This document shows, piece by piece, positions 31,650-40,763 of a stretch of 64,000 nt of DNA (position 1 is the stretch's first letter; each line of letters starts with the position of its first letter). The notes under the pieces are model-generated. The model did no database searches and was not told where the DNA came from. It worked only from the letters and a program-made list of their open reading frames with translations. This DNA comes from Gilliamella sp. Pra-s52 (GTDB lineage: Bacteria > Pseudomonadota > Gammaproteobacteria > Enterobacterales > Orbaceae). The stretch spans positions 248,001 to 312,000 of the forward strand of contig NZ_WTEY01000002.1 of NCBI RefSeq assembly GCF_009795805.1. Direction: 5' to 3'. Made by a program: the position numbers and the translations under genes.

Positions 31650-31790
31650 AATAAACCTCTAAAGTTTGTTCGTATCGCTATATAAACGGCTATAAAAGCA
31701 AAATCTATACACCATACGAGTGTTAAAAAACATGATAAGGTTGCGAATTATATGCCTTAAAGCTTAAATAATCAAGCGACAAAAAACTAA

Positions 31791-35590: not shown

Positions 35591-36934
35591 TTAAGCAATA
35601 AGACTAATAACAAGAACAACAATTAAACCGACAATTGAATTAACTAATTCTAACAGTCCCCATGTTTTTAAAGTATCTTTAATCGATAAATCAAAATAAC
35701 CTTTAAATAACCAAAAAGACGCATCATTGATGTGTGTTAATGTATTAGAACCAGCTGCAGTAGCAAGCACAAGTAATGCTGGATTAACTCCATTCATAAC
35801 ACCTGTTGTTGGATCAATAACAGCAGCACCAATAATACCAGCCGCTGTCATTGCAGAAACAACTCCTTGCCCTGTTGCTAAACGAATTAGCACAGTAATT
35901 AACCACGCCATAATATAAGGTGAGACCCCTCCCGTTGACATCAATTGTCCAATAGTATCACCAATTCCAGTATCAATAATAATTTGTTTTAATGCACCGC
36001 CGGCACCAATAATTAATACAACCATTGCAATACCTTTTACTGCATTGTCAAAAGAATGCATAACCCATTCCATTGAATGATTAAGTTTTTTTCCAAATAA
36101 TATAAATGCAACAATCATAGCAATAAACATTGAAATTTGAGATGAGCCAATAAAATTAAGAACTGAGTAAACAGTTGTTCCTTTTTCTAACCATATATTT
36201 GCTATTGTCGTTGCAATCATAATGTAAGCCGGAATCAAAGGAACAGTAATGGATGAAAAAAAAGAAGGAAGATTATTTTCATCAACAGGCGCTTCAGATT
36301 GTAAAAATTGAGGTGTTGGTCTTTCTAAATTACCTAAAATTTTAGGAAGAATCAATCCAGCAAAAATGACCGAAGGAATCGCAACAATTAACCCATAAAT
36401 ATAGACCATTCCCATATCGGCGTTATATGCATTTACTAGAGCTACGGGTCCTGGTTGTGGTGGGAATAAAGAGTGAGCGGTTGTTGCCGCTGCAACTCCA
36501 GGAATAGCTAATTTCAAAAATGGAATTTTTGCTTCTTTTGCTAATGCAATGACTAACGGAGCTAATATGATAAATGCAGCTTCATAAAACATTGCTAGAC
36601 CAAATATAAGCCCCATAATAATGATCGCTAGTTTTACATATTTAATTCCAAGTTTTTTTAATAATGTTTGAGCAATTTGATGAGCAGCACCAGAATCAAC
36701 CATTAATTTGCCAATAACTGCCCCAAAAACAACAATAATAGCTAATTCACCAAGAGTTCCACCAAATCCTGATTTAATCGTTTTAAGAATACTTAATAAA
36801 TCCATTTTAGCCATCAAGCCAACAAATATTGCGGCAGCTAATAATGCAACCATTGAGTTTATTTTAAAACGAATATTTAATATTAACATTAATCCTATTC
36901 CAAGGATAACCCAAAGAATATTTAAAAATTCCAT
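35591..36934 (-). CDS. gntP: GntP-family gluconate/fructuronate:H+ symporter
   Basis: A 447-residue permease, equal to E. coli GntP, with about 12 hydrophobic segments. Family sequences include [33 protein letters not shown] and [17 protein letters not shown] near residue 155. GGGGAG stands 9 bases before the start. E. coli gntP also neighbours uxuAB and imports fructuronate. It follows the broken uxuB by about 45 bases on the same strand, so it is probably cotranscribed and under UxuR and CRP control. Confidence 0.9.
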
Positions 36935-36980: not shown

Positions 36981-38463
36981 TTAATTAGATAAAACATAAT
37001 GGTGAACTGTTTGTTTTGCGCCGTAGTTCTTTAAAGAAAGATAGTGCTCAGTAACCTTTTCTTTAAATAATTTATTATTAAGTAAATCTGAACCAAAAAC
37101 AGCATCCAAACTTAGTAATGAATTTACTCGCTCAATACCTTCTCTACTAGAATTAACAATAGCTCTTAGTTGCTTACTCATTGGATCGCACACATCTATT
37201 GGCTGATTGTTATCATTAATTCCACCAACATAGCGCATCCACCCAGCAACGCCCAATGCCAATAATGAAAAATCTGAACCATTTTTGATATGCCAACGGA
37301 TTGAATCCAGCATTCTTTGAGGCAATTTTTGAGTACCATCCATCGCAATTTGCCATGTTTTATGTTTTAGTGATGGATTGCTAAAACGTTCAATAAGTTT
37401 GTTTGCATATTCTTGCAAATTAACATGATTAGGGACATTGAGTGTTGGTGCTTGTTGTTGCATCATCAATGCTAGAGTTGCTTTTTTATAATTAATATCA
37501 TTCATGCAATCATTAATGTGCTCGTAACCAGCCAAATAACCTAAGTAGGCTAAAAAAGAATGACTACCATTTAGCATACGAAGTTTCATTTCTTCATATG
37601 GAACAACATTATCAACAAATTCAGCACCAACTTCATTCCAATTAGGGCGGTTAGTCACAAAATTATCTTCTATGACCCACTGAATAAAAGGTTTACAAGC
37701 AATACCACATGGATCAAACATACCGCCTAATGTATTTTCAATTTCAGTTAAGGTTTCGGTTGATGCAGCAGGAACAATGCGATCAACCATAGTACATGGG
37801 AATGTTGTATTAGACTCAATCCAATTTGCTAATTGTGGATATCGAGCGTTAGCTAATCCTAATATTGCTCTTTTTAAAACTAATCCATTTTCGGGGATAT
37901 TATCGCATGATAAAGCAGTAAATGACTTTATCCCTCGTTGCATTCTTCTATAAAGTGCCTCGACAATAACACCTGGAGCAGATATAGGCTTTGTTGGATT
38001 CGCTAAGTCAGCTTTAATTAATGCATTATTCAAATCTAACTCTGCTCTCTGCTCCACCTGGAAACATACAATAACCCTTCTCCGTTACTGTTAATGAAAC
38101 AATTTCAACTACTGGATCTGCCATCTTTTCTAAAATTACATCTATACCATCTGTTAGTGTTAACAATGATTCTTTTACACTACCAATAATAAATGCTTCT
38201 TTTGATGTTGCACCTTTTTCTAACACAGTATACAAATGGTCTTGTTTACGAATTTCATTAATTAATTCTTCACCACCAACAATATTAACTTCACAAATAC
38301 CCCAGTCACAATTTCCTTTGTTAAGTAAACGATCCGTCAATAACGCTTGATGACCGCGGTGAAAAGCTCCAAATCCCAAATGGACAATTCGTGAGGTTAT
38401 TTTTTTCCTGTCATACAAAGGTTTATGCAGGATTGATTCAGGAAGGTTTAATAAATTTAACAT
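36981..38463 (-). pseudogene. uxuB: Fructuronate reductase, split by a 7-bp tandem duplication
   Basis: UxuB reduces D-fructuronate to D-mannonate with NADH. The N-terminal part (RIVHLGFGAFHRGHQALLTDRLL, ending in VSLTVTEKGYC) and the C-terminal part (LDLNNALIKADL to the end, including KLRMLNGSHSFLAYLGYLAGYE) lie in different frames. The shift is at 38041-38054, where TCTGCTC occurs twice in tandem. Deleting one copy restores a protein collinear with E. coli UxuB, with the same seven-residue spacing between GYC and LDLNN. The start is ATG 38463 with GGTGA upstream. Neither half alone would be a complete enzyme. The rest of the gene has no other lesions. Confidence 0.9.
38041..38054. repeat. 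Frameshifting 7-bp direct repeat in uxuB
   Basis: TCTGCTC at 38041-38047 is repeated exactly at 38048-38054. The copy number of two shifts the uxuB frame by +1; one copy would restore it. Confidence 0.92.
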
Positions 38464-38550
38464 TTTATTCACCATGATTATCTGTTTATCTACCCTATTG
38501 GTTAGACATATTTTCATTTGCTGATAAATATTTCATCTCAATTTTTTCTT

Positions 38551-38741: not shown

Positions 38742-39503
38742 ATGCTAGCGGTTAATCGGCTATATCAAGAAATTGGTAATGAACTCAAATCATTATTAAA
38801 AAGTGGCACCTATAAAATTGGTGACCGATTACCACCAGAAAGAGATATTGCAGAGGCATTTAGTGTAAGTCGAACCGTAGTGCGAGAAGCGCTAATTATG
38901 CTAGAACTCGAAAATCTAGTCACAGTAAAAAAAGGTTCTGGCGTATATGTAATTGGTTTACCAAATGAAATATTATCAGAAAAAGATAAAAAAATAGAAG
39001 AAGAGGATTTTGGTCCGTTCGAATTATTACAAGCTAGGCAATTAATTGAAAGTAATATTGCCGCTTTTGCCGCTTCACAAATTGTAAAATCAGATATTAT
39101 TGAATTAAGAGCGATTTTGGAACAAGAACGACAAATTTTAGAACAAGGTATGTTAGACGATTACAGTGCAGATGAAATGTTTCATATTGCGATAGCAAGA
39201 GCGACCAAGAATTCAATACTTGAAAGTTTGTTAGATGATTTATGGCAAAAACGTTCCGTTAGCAAAATGTGGGGGCAATTACACAGTCGAATTACCGATC
39301 ATAGTTATCGAAAAAAATGGCTTTATGATCATGAAAAAATTTTACAAGCATTACAGGTAAAAGACGCAATGTCAGCACGTCATGCTATGTGGCAACATTT
39401 AGAAAATGTTAAACAAACATTAATGGCAGTTTCTGATAGCGAAGATCCAAATTTTGATGGTTACTTATTTGACTCAATTCCGGTTAACATTGTTAATCAA
39501 TAG
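38742..39503 (+). CDS. uxuR: GntR/FadR-family regulator of hexuronate use
   Basis: A 253-residue FadR-subfamily regulator. The winged helix is YKIGDRLPPERDIAEAFSVSRTVVREALIMLE, then the wing GSGVYVI. The all-helical C-terminal ligand domain includes FELLQARQLIESNIAAFAA and AMWQHLENVKQTL, and the end FDGYLFDS matches E. coli UxuR closely. Its position between uxuB and uxuA and an operator-like palindrome upstream support the assignment. ExuR is a close paralogue. Confidence 0.9.
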   Translation: MLAVNRLYQEIGNELKSLLKSGTYKIGDRLPPERDIAEAFSVSRTVVREALIMLELENLVTVKKGSGVYVIGLPNEILSEKDKKIEEEDFGPFELLQARQLIESNIAAFAASQIVKSDIIELRAILEQERQILEQGMLDDYSADEMFHIAIARATKNSILESLLDDLWQKRSVSKMWGQLHSRITDHSYRKKWLYDHEKILQALQVKDAMSARHAMWQHLENVKQTLMAVSDSEDPNFDGYLFDSIPVNIVNQ

Positions 39504-39581: not shown

Positions 39582-40763
39582 ATGGAACAAACGATGCGTT
39601 GGTTTGGACCAAATGATCCAGTATCATTAGATGATATCAAACAAGCTGGAGCGACTGGAATTGTTACAGCTTTACACCATATTCCAAATGGTGAAGTGTG
39701 GACAATTGAAGAAATTCAAAAACGAAAAAATATTATTGAAGAAAAAGGCCTAACTTGGTCTGTCGTTGAAAGTATTCCTGTTCATGAAGAGATAAAAACA
39801 CATTCAGGTAACGTTGAACAACATATTGCAAATTACCAACAATCTATTCGCAATTTAGCCGCTTGTGGCATTGATACTGTTTGTTACAATTTTATGCCCG
39901 TTTTGGATTGGACTCGTACTGACCTTGCTTATGAGTTACCTGATGGCTCAAGAGCGTTACGTTTTGACCAAACTGCTTTTGCCGCATTTGATCTCTACCT
40001 ATTACAAAGACCTAATGCAGAAAAAGATTACTCAAAAGAAGATATCGCTTTAGCTAAGTCTTATTTTGAAAAAATGACACAAGCAGAAAAAGATAAGCTT
40101 ATTGCCAATATCATTGCAGGCTTACCAGGTGCAGAGGAAGGCTATTCTCTCGATCAATTTAGAGCACATCTTGCAACCTATGATGGTATCGATAAGGCTA
40201 AATTACGCGAAAATTATGCTTATTTTTTAAAAGCTATTGTCCCAGTTGCTGAAGAGGTTGGTGTAGTGTTAACAGTGCATCCTGATGATCCTCCAAGACC
40301 AATTTTAGGTTTACCTCGTATAGTTTCAACTATCGAAGATATGCAATGGATTAAAGATACAGTTGACAGTATTCATAATGGTTTTTGTTTTTGTACTGGC
40401 TCTTATGGTGTCCGCAATGATAATGATTTAGCAACAATGGCCGAAAAATTTGCCGACCGCGTTCATTTTATTCACTTACGGGCAACAGTTAGAGAAGACA
40501 ATCCCCTCTCTTTCCATGAAGGCGATCATTTAGCGGGTGATGTCGATATGTATGCAGTAATTAAAGCATTAGTCACAGAAGAAGAACGACGCAAAAAAGC
40601 AGGTATTAAACGCTCTATACCAGTTAGACCAGATCATGGACACCAAATGTTAGATGATCTTACCAAGAAAACTAACCCAGGTTATTCTGCAATTGGCCGT
40701 TTAAAAGGTTTAGCTGAAATTCGTGGTGTTGAGTATGCAATTCGTCGAGCTTTTTTCAATTAA
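39582..40763 (+). CDS. uxuA: Mannonate dehydratase
   Basis: Converts D-mannonate to 2-keto-3-deoxygluconate in hexuronate breakdown. The 393-residue protein (E. coli 394) begins [16 protein letters not shown] and has [12 protein letters not shown], the metal site [27 protein letters not shown] and [16 protein letters not shown] is 8 bases before the start. With uxuB broken, its substrate would have to come from outside or from a paralogous reductase. Confidence 0.96.

Follow-up and report, generated by a model that had tools for sequence, protein, structure and literature searches.

A probable young uxuB pseudogene in Gilliamella sp. Pra-s52, split by a 7-bp tandem duplication

The fructuronate reductase gene uxuB of Gilliamella sp. 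Pra-s52 is broken by an exact 7-bp tandem duplication. Our preferred reading, to which we give a probability of about three in four, is that this duplication, probably a product of slippage, made uxuB a young pseudogene and that the loss was tolerated as the pathway was redundant or unused. The genome (G000) is a 2.49-Mb draft in 65 contigs with 99.97% completeness, and the window is the 64-kb stretch of it that was analysed here (G000:C24:248001-312000). We compared it with a genome collection containing one genome per species, in which the genus is represented by 35 genomes. A literature search found no papers on uxuB in Gilliamella.

Direct sequence inspection located both copies of TCTGCTC claimed by the initial annotation, at 38041-38047 and 38048-38054, with uxuB divided there into two overlapping open reading frames (ORFs):

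38040-38054, minus strand: perfect period-7 run of 15 nt (2.14 copies, i.e., two copies and one base), the frame-breaking duplication
38026-38517, minus strand: N-terminal uxuB fragment, matching positions 12-136 of the 486 of profile NF011611 and 2-90 of the 199 of Pfam Mannitol_dh
36981-38057, minus strand: C-terminal uxuB fragment, an open frame, matching NF011611 139-484, Mannitol_dh 91-198, and Mannitol_dh_C

The N-terminal ORF starts at 38517 or, more likely, at 38463 and runs to an out-of-frame stop at 38026; the two ORFs overlap at 38026-38057. They cover neighbouring stretches of NF011611 (fructuronate reductase UxuB) and, scored separately, reach 507 and 146 bits, both below the curated cut-off of 603 bits. 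Since Mannitol_dh is split between the two fragments, the break lies inside the Rossmann domain. The C-terminal fragment carries the stretch KLRMLNGSH (K-x4-N-x2-H), which we take to be the catalytic motif of this enzyme family. No other stop or frameshift was found in the remaining uxuB coding sequence. The gene thus shows the features of a pseudogene: orthologous sequence and position (the latter backed by synteny with uxuR-uxuA-pth-prs), a frame cut within a domain, and 22 intact orthologues in relatives. Judging from the split gene, UxuB enzyme activity is probably lost and the inactivation is probably real.

A working enzyme could still be made if both ORFs were translated through +1 ribosomal frameshifting or re-initiation, and this would be allowed by the overlap of the frames and by a GTG and a TTG codon that the downstream frame has close to the break. 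We consider this exceedingly improbable, because the split cuts through the Rossmann domain midway and the stop of the first ORF overlaps an ATG (TAATG) that opens a third frame, which soon stops; moreover, no orthologue is a split gene. Re-initiation at TAATG was rejected, as its ATG is in the wrong frame.

The telling feature is the frame break together with a clean 7-nt difference from every orthologue, not the repeat itself. Across the genus, the site is exactly 7 nt shorter in all 22 full-length uxuB orthologues, and none of them has the repeat at this position. The UxuB homologues of Escherichia and Budvicia present the same protein spacing as these orthologues. Thus, the 7 nt are an insertion in this genome, and the earlier statement that one copy less gives a full-length UxuB with exact E. 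coli spacing agrees with the comparison. No nucleotide match was found in E. coli genomes, which is expected for a host so divergent. The identity of uxuB is about 90% to Gilliamella sp. Choc5-1 and about 78-79% to G. apicola and G. mensalis, which places the genome with the bee-gut genus Gilliamella.

In single-copy form, the unit has one base of microhomology behind it, and this fits a slipped-strand origin. Slipped-strand replication would have duplicated the 7 bp at this stretch, and the resulting frameshift would have produced a null mutation in this strain or lineage. Precise reversion is possible in principle, as with any small tandem duplication.

The initial annotation had proposed an exact 7-bp duplication as the inactivating lesion, recent or reversible. 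Inactivation by this duplication and its recent age are supported: the 7 nt are private to this genome, and no second lesion accompanies them. Among the 267 positions that are invariant in the 22 orthologues, five are changed in this uxuB, within the range of the other orthologues (0-8). The lesion is considered recent because of this range and the lack of any further stop or frameshift. What remains of the coding sequence showed no strong decay. The ratio of unique replacement to silent codon changes in uxuB is 20:26 here vs. 13:36 in five relatives (p = 0.09), a non-significant difference that gives a hint, without proof, of relaxed constraint.

A private insertion in a nearly undecayed gene from a 65-contig draft is also what an assembly or sequencing error would leave, with a single copy and an intact uxuB in the true genome. 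However, the exact duplication sits mid-contig in non-homopolymer sequence, where such a change is atypical of short-read error, and the long intact ORFs that flank it argue against a frameshift-ridden assembly. The isomerase gene uxaC is missing too, consistent with real pathway loss. Overall, we regard an error as unlikely.

The broken uxuB lies among genes that remain open:

35591-36934, minus strand: gntP, an intact GntP-family permease directly 3' of uxuB (NF007459, 801 bits, cut-off 647)
38742-39503, plus strand: divergent, open gene for a GntR-family regulator of the uxuR/exuR type (best match UxuR, below the equivalog cut-off)
39582-40763, plus strand: uxuA, an intact mannonate dehydratase (TIGR00695, 662 bits, cut-off 200)

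All three had been described as functional in appearance, and the open frames and family matches are in line with this. Unique replacement and silent changes number 3:27 in gntP, 2:10 in uxuR, and 0:18 in uxuA, and 6:95 in total for the neighbouring genes of this genome. From these ratios gntP, uxuR, and uxuA look constrained, which speaks against decay of the entire locus and is a point against our preferred reading. Their role may be in taking up fructuronate or mannonate, together with a paralogue of uxuB described below. Elsewhere in the window, an Rfam match marks a gammaproteobacterial L31 ribosomal protein leader at 31655-31718 on the minus strand.

Most close relatives have their genes in the order uxuB-uxaC-MFS transporter-gntP. 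Here, as in G023, gntP comes straight after uxuB without uxaC, and the two junctions are closely similar; G023 has an intact uxuB and another uxaC 31 kb away, this genome neither. G018 (L161:9649-10318) and G034 (L160:8918-9091) show signs of rearrangement at the locus, namely a degraded 58-aa piece of uxuB and incomplete second copies of the 3'-end of uxuR.

At the pathway level, no PF02614 match to uronate isomerase (uxaC) was found anywhere in this 99.97%-complete genome, and the same search recovered uxaC from 25 of the 35 genomes of the genus. KduI (kduI) gave no match in the genome either; KDPG aldolase is present. A functional glucuronate (hexuronate) pathway requires uxaC, whose product, the first enzyme, converts glucuronate to fructuronate. 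Since it was not found, glucuronate would be barred from UxuB via the standard route, whether uxuB is intact or not, and the genome is predicted to lack glucuronate use. The presence of uxaC was read from PF02614 searches and ORF lists.

Across the 35 Gilliamella genomes, uxaC is present in every genome with an intact uxuB (22/22) vs. 3 of the 13 without one, this one included. The Fisher test gives p = 1.6e-6 for this co-occurrence (3.8e-6 for the better assemblies only); it ignores the shared ancestry of the genomes, and so overstates the significance, but the direction is clear. Because uxuB is intact only in genomes that have uxaC, loss of the glucuronate branch seems to proceed piece by piece. 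G018, likewise without uxaC, keeps gntP, uxuR, and uxuA, and its uxuB is reduced to the 58-aa remnant; by comparison, the uxuB of Pra-s52 appears to be at a less advanced point of this loss. In G024, which has no uxuB orthologue, one uxuA match contains a single in-frame TAA (G024:C16:208686-209864), and a second uxuA match is interrupted (G024:C11:29617-30678). A single case such as the one described here matters little, and it adds one more data point to the pattern of bee-gut Gilliamella, in which uxuB is intact only where uxaC is present.

The genome also encodes a second enzyme of the UxuB type, located on another contig beside a mannonate dehydratase:

G000:C13:273640-275067: second UxuB-type fructuronate reductase, full-length, 493 aa (NF011611, 634 bits, cut-off 603)
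G000:C13, beside the UxuB-type paralogue: D-mannonate dehydratase ManD (733 bits, cut-off 550)

The cluster (L117:3922-9965) comprises ManD, an rspB-like Zn-dehydrogenase, an MFS transporter, the second UxuB-type reductase, and a GntR-family regulator. The paralogue is of the UxuB/YdfI type and is probably able to reduce fructuronate. In Haemophilus influenzae, fructuronate is made from L-gulonate and reduced by UxuB, with no need for UxaC (PMC5788505). By analogy, an L-gulonate route through the ManD/UxuB-type cluster is plausible.

A further putative sugar-acid cluster, on the contig of the window (L118:3800-10280, G000:C24), lies 4-10 kb past its right edge, some 30 kb on from uxuB and in roughly the place that uxaB-uxaC occupy in G023. 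It encodes an MFS transporter, a regulator, a tagaturonate reductase, a Zn-dehydrogenase, and a UxaA/galactarate-dehydratase-type protein, and this gene content would fit the use of an aldonic acid, possibly L-galactonate. Near the contig end, at L118:13063-16450, three ORFs of 365-367 aa that closely resemble one another stand in tandem.

In sum, uxaC is absent, and an intact paralogue and an intact uxuA are present. Under our preferred reading, the loss of uxuB would have been tolerated under relaxed selection, the pathway having already become redundant or fallen out of use, with uxaC missing and the intact paralogue probably reducing fructuronate. An intact uxuB evidently persisted until recently; therefore, the loss of uxaC did not end selection at once.

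The initial annotation had also raised the idea of an on/off switch for hexuronate use, and this part did not hold up. On this view, the 7-mer would slip between one copy and two and so toggle UxuB within the population. In its favour, dropping one copy would restore the frame, and uxuB shares one feature with reversible-duplication phase variation of the pneumococcal cap3A type, a tandem duplication within an ORF that breaks the frame. In pneumococcal capsule genes, reversible in-ORF duplications are known to underlie phase variation (Waite et al. 2001 and 2003, cited in PMC4243769).

A contingency locus would be expected to present a many-copy tract above chance and a copy number that varies among relatives. 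However, the tract at uxuB has two copies only, and perfect two-copy 7-mers number 7 in the 64-kb window vs. about 6 expected from Markov simulations, so an excess over chance was rejected. A second perfect two-copy 7-mer (ATGTTTT) is found in the same gene at 37355-37369, where the frame is unbroken, and shows that such repeats are ordinary. Copy number does not vary either, as no relative carries the repeat at the site (22/22 orthologues). UxuB is a cytoplasmic catabolic enzyme, whereas most of the contingency loci described so far encode surface structures. Moreover, with uxaC missing, even the "on" state would not allow glucuronate to be used through the standard route, and the genome has its second intact fructuronate reductase.

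In the insect-associated Xenorhabdus, the lrp mutations described include tandem duplications of 26-116 bp, and these were interpreted as plain mutations because phenotypic revertants never regained the original lrp sequence (PMC6786866). Altogether, we consider a switch very unlikely. A metabolic form of bet-hedging, with UxuB lost and regained by 7-bp slippage and a minority of cells using fructuronate or mannonate from other gut bacteria, seems extremely unlikely. An ordinary recent loss is most likely, ahead of a genetic on/off switch. More generally, the case shows that finding a two-copy perfect repeat in a disrupted gene says little for switching until relatives and the chance rate have been checked.

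Regarding known systems, the locus has the same families as the uxuAB-uxuR-gntP hexuronate/fructuronate system of E. coli (uxuA, uxuB, an uxuR/exuR-type regulator, and gntP). Unlike in E. coli, uxuB-gntP and uxuR-uxuA point away from each other, the genome yielded no uxaC, and uxuB is disrupted. The cluster on the other contig resembles the L-gulonate pathway of H. influenzae (GulD, UxuB, and UxuA) in grouping an rspB-like dehydrogenase, a UxuB-type enzyme, and ManD; the H. influenzae pathway uses a TRAP transporter and UxuA (PMC5788505), and L-gulonate is a putative substrate of the Gilliamella cluster.

The duplication itself is comparable to those of cap3A, cap8E, and tts in Streptococcus pneumoniae, in which a spontaneous in-ORF tandem duplication breaks the frame and is in principle precisely removable. 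According to the titles cited in PMC4243769, high-frequency switching was demonstrated for these genes, which are surface-polysaccharide genes. In contrast, uxuB has a unit of only 7 bp, encodes a cytoplasmic dehydrogenase, and gives no sign of switching. The likeness is greatest to the ordinary frameshift pseudogenes of host-associated bacteria, with no substantive difference: one small indel, a few bases long and private to one genome, disrupts a catabolic gene that is intact in all other respects, with linked pathway genes lost nearby or elsewhere.
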